From contig QZKU01000144.1 in the NCBI GenBank assembly GCA_003598085.1, forward strand, positions 13,265 through 77,264: a stretch of 64,000 nucleotides of DNA. Direction: 5' to 3'. The stretch is from Candidatus Abyssobacteria bacterium SURF_5. GTDB taxonomy: Bacteria; Abyssobacteria; SURF-5. Below the pieces are notes generated by a model, which saw nothing but the letters and a program-made list of their open reading frames with translations, did no database searches and was not told the origin of the DNA. Positions 21,267-28,254 of this stretch are shown here, one piece after another (position 1 is the stretch's first letter; every line of letters begins with the position of its first letter). The position numbers and the translations under genes are program-made.

Positions 21267-22655
21267 TTACCGGCTTATCATGTGAATCGCCTGTTTGCGA
21301 ACGGCTTCGTCGGCCTCATGAATGCTCTCGGAGAGGGTGGGATGCGCGTGAATCATTTCCGCGAGCTGTTCGACCGTGATTCCAGCGTGTACGGCGAGCA
21401 CCAGCTCATGAATGATGTCGGTCACATTCGGGCCGATCATGCTGGCGCCAAGCACCTTCTCGGTCTTCTTGTCCGCGACAACCTTCACAAAACCGGTGGT
21501 ATCCTCGATAATCATCGCCTTGCCCAGCGCAGTGAATCGGAATTTGCCGGTTTCCACCTCAAAACCGGCCTCCTTCGCATCATTTTCCTTCAGGCCGACA
21601 CTGGCGATCTCCGGCCGGGTATACACGCAGTACGGGATGGCATCATATGAAAATGTCCGGTCCCCGCCAAGAGCGTTGGCGACCGCCACTGTTCCCTGCA
21701 TGCTCGCGACGTGCGCGAGCATCACTTTTCCCAGAACGTCGCCGACAGCGTAAATGCCGGGCGCGCTCGTCTCCATCTTGTCGTTGACCAGGATAGCGCC
21801 GCGTTCGTCATGGTCCACGCCGGCATCGTCGAGCCCGATCCCTTCGGATACGACCGACCTGCCGACTGCGACCAGCGCCTTCTCGGCCTCGATGACTTCG
21901 CCGCCCTCTGTCGCGGCCTTCACCTTGCCGTCGGACACGTCCATATTCGTGATTTTGGCGCCCGTCAGAATCTTGATGCCGCGTTTCTTGAACTCGCTTT
22001 TCAGTGTCTGCGAGACCTCGCGTTCTTCGGTGGGAATAAGCTGCGGAAGCAGTTCGATAATAGTCACTTCCGAACCGAAATCGCGAAACATGCTTGCGAA
22101 CTCGCAGCCGACGTAGGCGCCGCCAATGATCATGATCGACTTGGGAACCTCTTTCAGGTCGAGCGCCTCGGTGCTCGTTATCACATTGACGCCATCCACC
22201 TTGAACATCGCCGGCCGCATTGCCTGCGAGCCGGTCGCAACGATAATCTTGCCGCTCTCGCCCTTCGCCTGTCCCTGCGGCAGTGTGACGCCGACGCGGC
22301 CGTCGCCAAGTAATCTCCCCTCGCCCTGCACGTACTCGACTTTGTGAGCCTTCAATAGGCTATGGATTCCGCCGACGAGTTTCTGGACAATCGCGTTCTT
22401 GCGTTCGAGCGCCTTCGGGTAAGCGAGCCTGACGTCGGATACCTCCACGCCGAATTTTTCCGCCTCCTTCGTCCTGGCCAATACATCGGCGGTCGCCAAA
22501 AAAGCTTTTGTTGGAATGCACCCCCTGAGCAGGCAGGTGCCGCCGACTTCATCTCGCTCGATAAGCGCTACATGTGCGCCGAGTTGGGCCGCCCTGATCG
22601 CGGAAACGTAACCGCCGGTGCCGCCTCCAATAATCGTGATATCGAATTTCGCCAT
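21267..22655 (-). CDS. lpdA: dihydrolipoyl dehydrogenase
   Basis: 462 residues. The FAD motif is IIGGGTGGYVSAIRAAQLG. The redox-active disulfide GTCLLRGCIPTK has Cys41 and Cys46, with LR where most family members have NV or NR. The NAD motif is IIGGAYVGCEFA. The C-terminal interface motif HAHPTLSE has His438 and Glu443, the catalytic base pair. It reoxidises dihydrolipoamide of 2-oxoacid dehydrogenase or glycine cleavage complexes with NAD. No E1/E2 or gcv genes are adjacent. It lacks an N-terminal HMA domain and the C-terminal Cys pair of mercuric reductase. SD GGAGAAAAGTC. Confidence 0.9.
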   Translation of the reverse strand: MAKFDITIIGGGTGGYVSAIRAAQLGAHVALIERDEVGGTCLLRGCIPTKAFLATADVLARTKEAEKFGVEVSDVRLAYPKALERKNAIVQKLVGGIHSLLKAHKVEYVQGEGRLLGDGRVGVTLPQGQAKGESGKIIVATGSQAMRPAMFKVDGVNVITSTEALDLKEVPKSIMIIGGAYVGCEFASMFRDFGSEVTIIELLPQLIPTEEREVSQTLKSEFKKRGIKILTGAKITNMDVSDGKVKAATEGGEVIEAEKALVAVGRSVVSEGIGLDDAGVDHDERGAILVNDKMETSAPGIYAVGDVLGKVMLAHVASMQGTVAVANALGGDRTFSYDAIPYCVYTRPEIASVGLKENDAKEAGFEVETGKFRFTALGKAMIIEDTTGFVKVVADKKTEKVLGASMIGPNVTDIIHELVLAVHAGITVEQLAEMIHAHPTLSESIHEADEAVRKQAIHMISR

Positions 22656-22758: not shown

Positions 22759-24189
22759 TCAGTCGCCGCCGCGCAGCCACTTCTGTATTTCTCTCTCCGA
22801 TGGTTCTATGGGATCGGGAGTGAGGCCGGGGATATACCGGCAGGCCTCATACAGAGCGGCGGCATGATTGCCATGGACGCCGGCAACGTGATGAACGTAC
22901 GGCCCCCGAATGATGCGCTCTTCCCAGAGCGGCCAATCGCCCGTCTCAAACCAGACATACGTGCCTCGGCTCAAGGGGCCGGCGACCGTTTTGCCCTCGC
23001 CGATCAGGAGCGAGTACTCGCCGTGGTCGCCGTCGAATCGGGCGACCGTGACCGGGCCTTCTTTCAACCTGAATTCGCCGCAGCCGGGATAGTTGCCTTC
23101 CATGATGTAGTGGCCGCTGCACGCAAGAGTCGGGCTCTTCTTGTCCTTGAGAGCGAGCGGGAAGTTGCCGCAATGCCAGAGCAGTTCCGCATTGTCGTTC
23201 TCGGGGTGGCGAACGGTGAGATCGGCAAAGAAAACGGATTGCTCCATTCTCGCCGCCGCCTGAAGCAACAAAGCCGTCACCGCACCGTGCACGTCGGTTT
23301 CGCAGGTTACCGGCAAGCCCTCCGCCGTCAAGAGGCCATTGATGAAACAGGGAACGATCCCGAGCGCCGGCTGCATCGCGTTCCAACATTGGAGCGCGAT
23401 CGCGTTTAGTTCGCGCTCCTTTGCCCATTCCTTCAGCACCCTCTTGAGACCGACCATCGCCTGGAGCGCTTCTTCCGAGCAATCGGTTGTATCGACGGCC
23501 GCCTTGATCGATTTGACCTCGTTGACAACCGCTTTCCGATGATCTTTCACGATAGCGCGAGCGCGATCAGCCATCTCGGAAAGCGCCACGGGCGCCACCT
23601 CGATGCCGAACCGCTCGAGAAGCTCGCCCTCGTTATACATCATCGTCCAGAAAGCGCCCGGCCGGGGCGCAACCTGCCCGATGCGCATGCGCCGGAATGC
23701 GTTCGCGGCGGAGGCGGCGGAAACGAAGGTGCGAAACCCCCTCTCGAAGACCGGCTCATCGAGACGACTGTTTACGATATAGGTGAAGGGGACGTTCATT
23801 CGGCGCAGCACCTTGCTCGTGGCGAACAAGCCGCACTGAGTATCGCGCAGGCGCAGGCCGTCGGGGCTGGGCGCATCATCTCGCGGTCCCCATAACAGCA
23901 GCGGAACCCCGAGCATCTTGCCCAATTTCGCGACGGCATCCTCGGAACCGAAATTGCAGTGCGGCACGAAAACGGCATCCACGTATTCATGCCGGAACTT
24001 CTTGAAAACATCGTTCACCTGATCAAGATTGAAAAGGAGCCCCTCGTCGTTCAACCAGTCGATATCCACAACATCGATGCCGAATGACTTGAGCTTCTTC
24101 AGAATCAATTTCCGATATTTGCCGGCTTCTTCCTTGCTGAAAGTGACCCGGCGCGTCGGCGCATACCCGAGCCTGAATCTCTTGCCGTT
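22759..24189 (-). CDS. L-fucose/L-arabinose isomerase-like protein
   Basis: Start set at ATG 24189, behind the strong SD GGAAAGGAG; the frame continues upstream to 24261 without another signal. 476 residues. The first ~170 residues (RLGYAPTRR, VDIDWLNDEG, AVFVPHCNFGSEDAVAKLGKMLGVPLLLWGPRD) form the Rossmann-like domains of the fucose/arabinose isomerase family. Around 280-340 comes ECW/CWNAMQPALGIVPCFINGLLTAEGLPVTCETDVHGAVTALLL, where the glutamate and aspartate of CETDVHG resemble the metal site. The C-terminus HHVAGVHGNHAAALYEACRYIPGL is also typical. It probably isomerises an unknown aldose, or is a divergent non-sugar member. Monocistronic by appearance. Confidence 0.7.
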   Translation of the reverse strand, partial: NGKRFRLGYAPTRRVTFSKEEAGKYRKLILKKLKSFGIDVVDIDWLNDEGLLFNLDQVNDVFKKFRHEYVDAVFVPHCNFGSEDAVAKLGKMLGVPLLLWGPRDDAPSPDGLRLRDTQCGLFATSKVLRRMNVPFTYIVNSRLDEPVFERGFRTFVSAASAANAFRRMRIGQVAPRPGAFWTMMYNEGELLERFGIEVAPVALSEMADRARAIVKDHRKAVVNEVKSIKAAVDTTDCSEEALQAMVGLKRVLKEWAKERELNAIALQCWNAMQPALGIVPCFINGLLTAEGLPVTCETDVHGAVTALLLQAAARMEQSVFFADLTVRHPENDNAELLWHCGNFPLALKDKKSPTLACSGHYIMEGNYPGCGEFRLKEGPVTVARFDGDHGEYSLLIGEGKTVAGPLSRGTYVWFETGDWPLWEERIIRGPYVHHVAGVHGNHAAALYEACRYIPGLTPDPIEPSEREIQKWLRGGD

Positions 24190-24227
24190 CATAAAGCTCC
24201 TTTCCAATGGGGTCAGTCTTACATTAT

Positions 24228-24350
24228 GATTCTGCTGCAAAACCCTCACTCTCGGGTTCAACCGCGCTATGGTAGGTGCGAATTTATTCGCACATTCAAG
24301 ACTGGCCGAATGAATTCGGCCCTACCAAAGGGGGGCTCTGCAGTGGAATC
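24228..24350 (+). repeat. MITE-like palindromic repeat, copy A
   Basis: About 123 bp. The ends are near-perfect terminal inverted repeats (GATTCTGCTGCAAAACCC against GATTCCACTGCAGAGCCC on the other strand). Inside are two palindromes, GTGCGAATTTATTCGCAC and GGCCGAATGAATTCGGCC, framed by GGTAGG and CCTACC. The whole unit can fold into one long hairpin or cruciform. Copies B and C are at 25260 and 28099. Copy A lies between the MerB-like and isomerase genes. No coding capacity. Confidence 0.85.
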
Positions 24351-24432
24351 ACATTATTACGTTTTGCTAACGGAAGAAGCTGTTTGCCCCTGAAACGACA
24401 CGTTTCGCTTTTATCTTGGAATCCAGTGCCTG

Positions 24433-25131
24433 TTACGGCACCCAGAACGGCCCGGTTTTTCCGATCTCCCGCAGCGTGTTGAAGAATTCGGGCATGAATT
24501 CCTGCATGCGCGAAATGTAATCCGGCTCCATTCGCTTGCGGAAAAAATCGATCGAGAACAGTTTTACCAGGTCCGCCACCGGTATGATGCCCGCCTCGGT
24601 CGCGGGATCAAACTGCTTCCAGTTTCTCAGATGTTCTTCCGACCGGAAGAAGTTCATCGTGCTTCAGGCAAAGCCCGGATCTTGCATCCACGAGAAGAAC
24701 GGAACGGAGACATGCCCGATGATCTCTTCAGGCTGTTTCTTGAGGATTTGACCGTCCTTGACCTCGACGTGGATCGGCTCGCCGCAATCGAGACAGGGAG
24801 AATCAATATTAATGATCTTGCCCGGAAAAAGCCAGCAGACTGCCAGCGACTCGAATGCTCACTGGCCAAACCATTTCTGAAGGCCGTCAATCGTGATTCG
24901 GTACTGGTTCTGCAGGTTGTGAAACGGGGCCATCGAAACCAGCAGGTCGGTCTTGGGGTAGAGCCAGCCGGGCACGCCCGAATTGATCAGGTTGTGCAGC
25001 GCCTGGCGCCCCTCCTCCATCGAAACCCCCAACTCCTTCGCGATTTGGGTGTAATGCGGCGCCTGTCCCGTTTCGACCATCCCTCTCATGATGATGTTGA
25101 ACGTTCTGTCCAATTGCGTGGGTTCGGCCAT
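24433..25131 (-). CDS. MerB-like (alkylmercury lyase family) selenoprotein with two in-frame TGA codons
   Basis: One frame runs from ATG 25131 (SD AGGAGG) to TAA 24433, 232 residues, if TGA at 24861-24859 (residue 91) and TGA at 24666-24664 (residue 156) are read as selenocysteine. Residues 8-90 resemble the MerB winged-helix domain and linker (YTQIAKELGVSMEEGRQAL; FHNLQNQYRITIDGLQKW). After it, Sec-AFESLAVCWLFPGKIINIDSPC aligns with E. coli MerB CALDTLIFP...SSHC, placing Sec91 on Cys96, Glu94 on Asp99 and Cys113 on Cys117. Sec156-STMNFFRSEEHLRNW aligns with the Cys159 region CCHVHFFASVPTAEDW. Each TGA is followed by a SECIS-like hairpin. A promoter lies at 25177-25205. MerB cleaves C-Hg bonds; the substrate here is unproven. 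The alternative, a pseudogene with two stops, fits poorly. MerB numbering is from memory. Confidence 0.82.
24634..24651 (-). promoter_or_regulatory. SECIS-like hairpin after the second TGA (Sec156)
   Basis: Minus strand, 12 nt after TGA 24666-24664. UUCUUCC-GGUC-GGAAGAA is a perfect 7-bp stem with a GGUC loop. Bacterial SECIS elements place a stem about 11-13 nt after UGA with a GU/GGU apical loop for SelB; this fits closely. The hairpin is inside the coding region, as required in bacteria. Confidence 0.75.
24831..24847 (-). promoter_or_regulatory. SECIS-like hairpin after the first TGA (Sec91)
   Basis: Minus strand, 11 nt after TGA 24861-24859. GCUGGCA-GUC-UGCUGGC forms 7 pairs (two G-U) around GUC. 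The E. coli fdhF SECIS upper stem, GGUUGCAGGUCUGCACC (from memory), has the same 17-nt length, the same 11-nt distance from UGA and nearly the same apex (GCAGGUCUGC against GCAGUCUGC). Confidence 0.78.
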
Positions 25132-25176
25132 ATGCTCATCCTCCTGTCCTTTGCCGCGACCTTTAAAGCCGCCGAA

Positions 25177-25205
25177 ATTATATGAGGTTTCGCTAACTAT
25201 TTCAA
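25177..25205 (-). promoter_or_regulatory. promoter of the MerB-like selenoprotein gene
   Basis: On the minus strand TTGAAA (25205-25200), exactly 17 bp, TATAAT (25182-25177). The start codon is 45 bp downstream. It is independent of the flanking repeat copy B, which ends 55 bp further upstream. An intact promoter and SD argue that the gene is expressed. Confidence 0.7.
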
Positions 25206-25259: not shown

Positions 25260-25387
25260 GATTCTGCTGCAAAACCCTCACTCTCCGGTTCAACCGCGCT
25301 ATGGTAGGTGCGAATTTATTCGCACATTCAAGTCAAGACTGGCCGAATGAATTCGGCCCTACCAAAGGGGGGTTCTGCAGCGGAATC
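25260..25387 (+). repeat. MITE-like palindromic repeat, copy B
   Basis: Same element and orientation as copy A, with 128 bp because TCAAG is duplicated between the two inner palindromes. Its right terminal repeat GTTCTGCAGCGGAATC is the better match to the left end GATTCTGCTGCAAAAC. With copy A it brackets the MerB-like gene in direct orientation. Confidence 0.85.
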
Positions 25388-25460
25388 CATGAAAAACTCC
25401 TTTTGGTTTATAATATGCAAAATCCGAATAATCCCGGGTCCATCGAATAGGAGGAGAATA

Positions 25461-26684: not shown

Positions 26685-28100
26685 ATGGCCCAAAGAGATG
26701 ATATGCGCCGCTTCTTCTCGCCCCAATCGGTTGCCATTGTCGGGGTCCCGCGCAAGCCCGACCGCTTCGGCGGCGGAAGCTTTCTGGCAAAACTGCTGGA
26801 ATGCGGTTTTCCCGGAAAACTGTTCCCGATCAATCCGGGTGCGGACGAAATCCTCGGACTCAAGGCATATCCTTCTCTCTCATCGCTTCCTGTCGCGCCT
26901 GATCTCGTGATCGTTAGCGTGGCGGCCGCCCATGTTCCGGCAGTCCTCGAAGAATGCGCCCGCCTCGGCGTGCGGCACATTCATATCCTTTCATCAGGCT
27001 TCAAAGAGATCGGTACGGAAGAGGGCGGGCGCCTTGAGGAGCGGGTACGAAAGATTGCAGGCGAGATGAACTTGCTCATCATCGGCCCCAACTGCATGGG
27101 GCCATATTGCCCGTCCTCACGATTGACCGCCTGGGGCGCCATTCCCGGCATGAGCGGACCGGTCGGCGTCATCTCACAGAGCGGCGGTATCACGCAACGG
27201 CTGACGGAATACCTCTTTTCAATGGGAATCGGGACAGACAAGGCCGTCAGCATCGGGAATGCCGCCGTCCTGGATACTCCCGATTATCTTGAATTCATGG
27301 CTCATGATGAGAACGTCCGCGTAATCGCGATGTACCTGGAGAGTGTGGGCGACGGCAGGAGATTTTTTCAGTTGGCGCGCAGGATCACGAAAAGCAAGCC
27401 GATCGTGGTCTGGAAAGGCGGTGAGACAGGCGTCGGCGCCCGCACGGCGGCGTCCCACACCGGCACGCTCGCGGGTAATCATGCCCTATGCGAAGCCATG
27501 TTCCGCCAGAGCGGAATCACGCACGTGCGTTCTTTACATGAATGGGCCGACGCCATCATAGCCTTTGCCTTGCTGCCGAAACCGCAGGGCAGACGGGTGT
27601 TCCTCATTGGCGGCGGTGGAGGCAACAGCGTCGGCAACAGCGACACATGCATCAGGGAAGGCCTCGACGTGCCAAGGCTATCGGAAGCTAGTATGAACAG
27701 GCTTCGCGAAACTGTGCCGGTCGCGGGTTCCATCGCGGGCAATCCTCTTGATATGTGGCGCATATTCGACGACCCGGATTACCTGCTGGAAATCCTTGAA
27801 CTGGCATATGACGAGCCGAACGCAGACATGCTTATTGTGGATCGTTTGATCCCCCGGAAGGCGTTCCACATGGAAGAACGGGCCGATGCGACGGCGCAGA
27901 TCGCGAAGCTGATGAGAAAACACCTGCTCGAAAAACCGACCGTTGTCACCGCCGACTCCGACGGCGGCGACCCGGAATTGGCGGCAAAGGGGGCGGCTCT
28001 GCGCGCCAAATTCACCAGCGCCGGCATACCAGCTTATCCCTCGCTCCAGCGTGCCGCCCGCGCCCTCGCTCATCTATATCGATCCGGACGTCATCTTTGA
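26685..28100 (+). CDS. CoA-binding (alpha-type) subunit of NDP-forming acyl-CoA synthetase
   Basis: 471 residues. The N-terminal CoA-binding Rossmann domain starts FFSPQSVAIVGVPRKPDRFG (about 9-28). Succinyl-CoA-synthetase-like domains follow, with LLIIGPNCMGPYCP and GPVGVISQSGGITQRL, then the phosphohistidine loop AASHTGTLAG (about 253-262). The C-terminus reaches the inter-domain hinge but has no ATP-grasp (beta) domain, so it needs a separate beta subunit or acts otherwise. The family converts acyl-CoA plus NDP and phosphate to acid, CoA and NTP. The TGA stop (28098-28100) overlaps the first bases of repeat copy C. It is a lone gene, with no beta subunit visible in the window. Confidence 0.82.
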   Translation: MAQRDDMRRFFSPQSVAIVGVPRKPDRFGGGSFLAKLLECGFPGKLFPINPGADEILGLKAYPSLSSLPVAPDLVIVSVAAAHVPAVLEECARLGVRHIHILSSGFKEIGTEEGGRLEERVRKIAGEMNLLIIGPNCMGPYCPSSRLTAWGAIPGMSGPVGVISQSGGITQRLTEYLFSMGIGTDKAVSIGNAAVLDTPDYLEFMAHDENVRVIAMYLESVGDGRRFFQLARRITKSKPIVVWKGGETGVGARTAASHTGTLAGNHALCEAMFRQSGITHVRSLHEWADAIIAFALLPKPQGRRVFLIGGGGGNSVGNSDTCIREGLDVPRLSEASMNRLRETVPVAGSIAGNPLDMWRIFDDPDYLLEILELAYDEPNADMLIVDRLIPRKAFHMEERADATAQIAKLMRKHLLEKPTVVTADSDGGDPELAAKGAALRAKFTSAGIPAYPSLQRAARALAHLYRSGRHL

Positions 28101-28221
28101 TTCCGCCGCAGAACCCCCCTTTGGTAGGGCCGAATTCATTCGGCCAGTCTTGAATGTGCGAATAAATTCGCACCTACCATACCGCGGTTAAACCCGAGAG
28201 TGAGGGTTTTGCAGCAGAATC
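28099..28221 (-). repeat. MITE-like palindromic repeat, copy C (inverted)
   Basis: Same 123-bp element in reverse orientation to A and B: it begins GATTCCGCCGCAGAACCC and ends GTTTTGCAGCAGAATC on the plus strand. It starts within the stop codon of the acyl-CoA synthetase gene, so insertion was at the exact gene end or the element supplied the stop. One inner arm reads TACCATACCGCGG where A and B have CCGCGCTATGGTA. Confidence 0.85.
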
Positions 28222-28254
28222 ATCTTTAGGAGATGACCCCGGCTCCGAATGCTC

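Follow-up and report, generated by a model that had tools for sequence, protein, structure and literature searches.

The window, i.e., the whole stretch of 64,000 nucleotides analysed here, belongs to Candidatus Abyssubacteria SURF_5, a metagenome-assembled genome obtained from fluids of the former Homestake mine at a depth of 1.5 km (PMC6121073). The assembly that carries it consists of 5.10 Mb in 145 contigs. Within the window lies a minus-strand gene encoding a MerB-like protein, in which two TGA codons are very probably read as selenocysteine (Sec) (Table 1). Read directly, the frame starts with ATG at 25131, closes with TAA at 24433 and, as had been claimed in the first-pass annotation, is a single frame broken by nothing other than these two codons. 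The Shine-Dalgarno sequence reported there is also present. The promoter, described as TTGAAA-N17-TATAAT, can be found upstream; however, such matches are common (2 were found in the region, with 1.1 expected), and for this reason the site is only weak evidence. Standard annotation would break genes of this double-Sec family into fragments.

Table 1. Features of the double-Sec gene and its surroundings (positions within the window)
Feature	Position	Strand	Details and basis
MerB-like gene, predicted double-selenocysteine	24433..25131	-	232 codons; TGA at codons 91 and 156; stop TAA
TGA codon 91, predicted Sec, at MerB Cys96 position	24859..24861	-	alignment; Cys in 29/41, TGA in 11/41 homologues
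TGA codon 156, predicted Sec, at MerB Cys159 position	24664..24666	-	alignment; TGA in 25/41, Cys in 15/41 homologues
Glu94 codon, at MerB Asp99 (acid) position	24850..24852	-	Sec-containing homologues: Asp 22/25, Glu 3/25
Shine-Dalgarno AGGAGG	25140..25145	-	8 nt before ATG; read directly
Promoter-like TTGAAA-N17-TATAAT	25177..25205	-	consensus match only, 11/12 matches
Putative SECIS hairpin 1	24831..24847	-	7 pairs (two G-U), 3-nt GUC loop, 11 nt after TGA 91
Putative SECIS hairpin 2	24634..24651	-	7 pairs, 4-nt GGUC loop, 12 nt after TGA 156
Gene directly downstream	22762..24192	-	C-terminal L-fucose isomerase domain only
Pyr_redox protein, two genes downstream	21267..22655		read as lipoamide dehydrogenase from motifs
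Repeat of ~125 bp, flanking copy	24226..24351
Repeat of ~125 bp, flanking copy	25260..25392
Repeat of ~125 bp, third copy	28094..28223		inverted, 3 kb away

The neighbours of the gene in the window are ordinary metabolic genes, encoding ResB, a polyprenyl synthase, a lipoamide-dehydrogenase-like protein, a Fucose_iso_C protein, and acyl-CoA enzymes. No mer genes were found among the window neighbours checked, and no neighbour of the MerB-like gene is conserved across the loci compared; therefore, the substrate cannot be read from the genomic context. The Pyr_redox protein was considered as a possible MerA and rejected, as its motifs GCIPTKA and HPTLSE were read as those of lipoamide dehydrogenase. 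This is our own reading of the motifs, and Pfam gives the family only. The gene directly downstream matches nothing but the C-terminal domain of L-fucose isomerase. The double-Sec gene is flanked on both sides by copies, 96–99% identical and in the same orientation, of a REP- or MITE-like repeat with two palindromic parts, and a third, inverted copy is located nearby.

The first-pass annotation interpreted the gene as encoding a MerB-like protein with Sec at both catalytic positions, and asked for several points to be checked, among them the family match of the read-through protein, the residues of homologues at both positions, the presence of Sec machinery in the genome, and an assembly error at the TGAs. 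The first point is met, since the Pfam model MerB (PF03243) matches the read-through protein with 73.7 bits (1.7e-20), above the curated cut-off of 27. The profile of 41 homologues detects MerB crystal structures at E values from 1e-42 to 1e-37, and its alignment to the PDB sequences places Sec91 on Cys96, Sec156 on Cys159, Glu94 on Asp99, and Cys113 on Cys117, i.e., exactly the correspondence that had been proposed. The AlphaFold model of the double-Sec protein (pLDDT 94.4) leads to the same fold. VIA-align gave a Z of 18.2 for Hg-bound MerB2 (193 residues, 3.6 A) and 16–17 for MerB, and Foldseek matched the model to MerB structures at 1e-10. The next unrelated structures are LexA winged helices, for which the alignment is limited to about 65 residues and covers little more than the N-terminal domain. 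The cut-offs of the NCBIfam MerB models are not met (37.1 bits against 193 and 34.1 against 200), nor is the canonical residue set Cys96/Asp99/Cys117/Cys159 (as in PMC8261052), which here is Sec/Glu/Cys/Sec. The model of the MerB-like selenoprotein SaoL (NF040728, cut-off 140 bits) gives 40.8 bits for the window protein and 35–51 bits for the Sec types tested, and none of these proteins passes the cut-off of any other NCBIfam model. With these cut-offs unmet, the protein cannot simply be assigned to canonical MerB or to SaoL.

Two in-frame stops, at which ordinary gene finders would split the gene, might also be expected by chance in a decaying gene or after an assembly error. This explanation is hardly credible in view of the relatives. 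Three Ca. Abyssobacteria genomes were compared (SURF_5, SURF_17, and JACRIR01), and the orthologues in both other genomes, 78 and 74% identical, retain both TGAs, so that the same pair occurs in three independent assemblies. In addition, the SURF_5 genome encodes a second, distant paralogue type (~20% identical) with TGA at exactly both positions, which was found in 8 genomes of 3 phyla (G000, G002, G245, and 5 genomes of another phylum). In intact homologues the TGAs align only with Cys, and neither TAA nor TAG occurs at either position in the 41 tabulated homologues. The sole exception is the degenerate copy L057, which has lost both catalytic residues (Ser at position 91 and Trp at 156). 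Selection also acts on the parts after each TGA: for the segments before, between, and after the TGAs, dN/dS was 0.05–0.14 for the window gene against L022, where computable, and 0.09–0.23 between the two orthologues. These ratios were read only in segments with unsaturated dS; across the orthologues, silent substitutions are close to saturated or fully so, while the protein is kept. The conserved TGAs of the orthologues, the residues of the homologues, and purifying selection rule out a pseudogene or an assembly error, and together with the covariation of the second hairpin, described below, they are the reason for considering the double-Sec gene real.

The genome encodes the complete set of Sec genes: selA (588 bits), selB (381 bits), selC, the tRNA-Sec with anticodon TCA (67.5 bits), and selD (L026; 388 bits). 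The last is itself interrupted by TGA and contains GGUACK, as the usual Sec-containing SelD. A genome-wide reassignment of TGA was also considered; it is ruled out, because TGA is the terminal stop of 20 of the 38 long ORFs in the window. The central claim of the first-pass annotation withstood every computational test named there, while the chemistry remains unproven. It is almost certain that both positions, 91 and 156, are Sec; the actual insertion is inferred, without experimental evidence of Sec in the protein.

It was also claimed that a 7-bp hairpin follows each TGA at 11 or 12 nt. Both distances and both stems (GCTGGCA-GTC-TGCTGGC for hairpin 1 and TTCTTCC-GGTC-GGAAGAA for hairpin 2) were found as described, but the two structures are not equally well supported. 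In the hairpin 2 region, 25 TGA-containing copies share the same distance and a GGUC loop at a fixed position (GUUC in one copy). Of the 8 pairs, 6 change on both sides (24 of the 25 copies), the covariation score is 0.32 compared with 0.16 in shuffles (24 sequences), and sliding the partner strand by 1–3 columns reduces the pairing from 88% to 50–59%. The GU loop ascribed to this hairpin holds if the inner G-C is counted as paired; otherwise, the loop is the 4-nt GGUC. Hairpin 1, taken singly, is no stronger than chance, as an equally long stem arises in 17% of synonymous recodings, which weakens the overall explanation. Folding of synonymous shuffles and tests of local synonymous conservation gave mixed results overall and weak ones for hairpin 1. 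It is present in all three orthologues, with one closing pair changed from A-U to G-U, and what supports it is its position, its conservation, and the fact that a signal is needed at this place. The stems after the first TGA differ between the double-Sec types: GCTGGC(A/G)-GTC-TGCTGGC in the window type and CGCCCTT-CGTGC-AAGGGCG in the second type, where one compensated change from C-G to T-A was observed. With the TTTTT that comes directly after it, hairpin 1 also scores as an intrinsic terminator, so that a failure to insert Sec might lead to loss of the transcript.

How the double-Sec state arose was considered using a maximum-likelihood tree in which the U columns were entered as Cys, so the grouping is not driven by the Sec columns. 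Double-Sec proteins occur in two places: the window type is the sister of a Cys/Sec clade, and the second type forms a separate, fully supported clade. Forcing all Sec-containing proteins together was rejected (p-AU 0.0018), as was forcing all double-Sec proteins together (p-AU 0.028), although the latter is modest evidence because of long branches. As far as can be judged from sequences, the double-Sec state seems to have arisen twice independently. The sister clade comprises 14 Cys96/TGA159 sequences from 14 genomes of one other phylum (L037, L043–L050, L052, L053, L056, L060, and L069), and the members tested fall below every NCBIfam cut-off. Inside this clade there are also two Cys/Cys sequences (L054 and L059) with Cys at the acid position. 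An ordinary Cys/Cys MerB (L021; 204 bits to NCBIfam MerB, cut-off 193) is encoded in SURF_17 (G002) beside two double-Sec copies. A plasmid search for similar genes gave one weak match, of the ordinary MerB family.

In MerB, R-Hg is bound via Cys96 and Cys159 and the proton is transferred by Asp99 (PMC4525700; PMC8261052). In the favoured reading of the double-Sec gene, each UGA would be recoded through the hairpin 11–12 nt downstream by the genome's own SelA, SelB, SelC, and SelD, placing Sec at both metal-binding positions. An organometal compound would hand its metal to the two selenolates, and residue 94, the acid (Glu in the window protein, Asp in the other Sec types), would give a proton to the leaving carbon. 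The natural first guess for the substrate is R-Hg+, but it could also be an organotin or organolead compound or one of another soft metal or metalloid. At neutral pH, selenolates are deprotonated, and they bind soft metals tighter than thiolates do; the Hg-Se bond is stronger than the Hg-S bond. Selones, as small-molecule mimics of organomercurial lyase, are reported to cleave Hg-C faster than the sulfur analogues, thiones (review PMC11639659). The metal might then stay between the two Sec residues until it is removed by thiols or an unknown partner. Release, too, is inferred; since two selenolates would bind Hg(II) so tightly, turnover would need a special release step. The whole reading, a recoded selenoprotein of MerB fold that acts, most probably, as a carbon-metal lyase, is held with good though not high confidence. 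The lyase activity itself, which is inferred and not demonstrated, is favoured to a lesser degree, and organomercury as the main substrate is a tentative assignment, somewhat short of an even chance.

The debatable issue is whether such a protein cleaves a carbon-metal bond at all. The gene is solitary, nothing ties it to mercury, and residue 94 of the window copy is Glu instead of Asp, all of which counts against the favoured reading. Two selenolates would suit near-irreversible capture, and it can be imagined that the protein only holds Hg(II), another soft metal, or a metalloid, or passes the metal on via C113-x-x-C116. These two Cys residues are kept in 11/11 double-Sec proteins and in 9/30 others, which agrees with this alternative; they could equally be a structural site or an aid to metal release. 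A pure binder, however, has no need of an acid at position 94, and yet Asp or Glu is present there in 25/25 Sec-containing proteins, so sequestration without cleavage is considered unlikely. A role in redox chemistry, with the two facing Sec residues forming a diselenide, was considered as well. According to a review, a redox function is assumed for the majority of known selenoproteins (PMC9312934). A Sec pair could form such a bond. Against this, the MerB fold extends along almost the whole chain, and many homologues contain Cys at either position together with the conserved acid residue. We know of no redox enzyme built on the MerB fold, and an oxidoreductase is regarded as distinctly unlikely. 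It is the acid, invariably Asp or Glu in Sec-containing proteins, that speaks for the chemistry of a lyase rather than for binding alone or a redox function. If the lyase reading is extended to the family, one arrives at a class of two-selenolate (Se-M-Se) organometal lyases, with at least two origins from Cys/Cys or Cys/Sec ancestors and without a mer operon, whose substrate would be organomercury or an organometal compound poorly handled by thiol-based MerB. Whether such a class exists is, in our estimation, evenly balanced.

Concerning known systems, one MerB homologue that is also a selenoprotein has been reported. SaoL (NF040728) is a MerB-like organometallic lyase of the Sec-assisted organometal (SAO) system (Haft and Gwadz 2023, as cited in PMC13188914). 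It is listed there with one Sec, in a CU motif, in contrast to two in the window protein; the place of this Sec in the MerB fold remains unchecked. SaoL is encoded in an operon with several selenoproteins, whereas the window gene stands alone, and no SAO operon with other selenoproteins was found among its window neighbours. The first-pass annotation left undecided whether the family had been described. The double-Sec form is largely undescribed, since no MerB homologue with two Sec was found in the literature searched (which excludes the primary SaoL paper and a 2025 follow-up), but a MerB homologue with a single Sec is known. To our knowledge, enzymes in which both Cys of a catalytic metal-binding pair are Sec are rare; here, the double swap apparently evolved twice, and no mer operon is visible around the genes concerned. 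This raises a testable question, namely what advantage Sec brings to carbon-metal bond cleavage and how the metal is let go. With MerB (PF03243; PDB 3f0o, 3f2f, and 1s6l; MerB2 5c17), the double-Sec protein shares the fold almost chain-wide, including the N-terminal winged helix, and positions equivalent to Cys96, Asp99, Cys117, and Cys159. It differs in having Sec, Sec, and Glu where MerB has Cys96, Cys159, and Asp99, in the extra Cys116 and a C-terminal extension, in an identity of 15–21%, and in the absence of a mer operon. The Cys96/Sec159 homologues of the sister clade are closer, as they share the C-terminal extension and their hairpin downstream of TGA159 is nearly identical to hairpin 2, but they have Cys at position 96 and Asp at position 99 in place of Sec and Glu. 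In E. coli fdhF, the SECIS element is a hairpin about 11–12 nt after the UGA with G and U in the apical loop. The window hairpins share this spacing and the apical G and U and differ in stem sequence, and the window gene, unlike fdhF, contains two such hairpins within one short gene.
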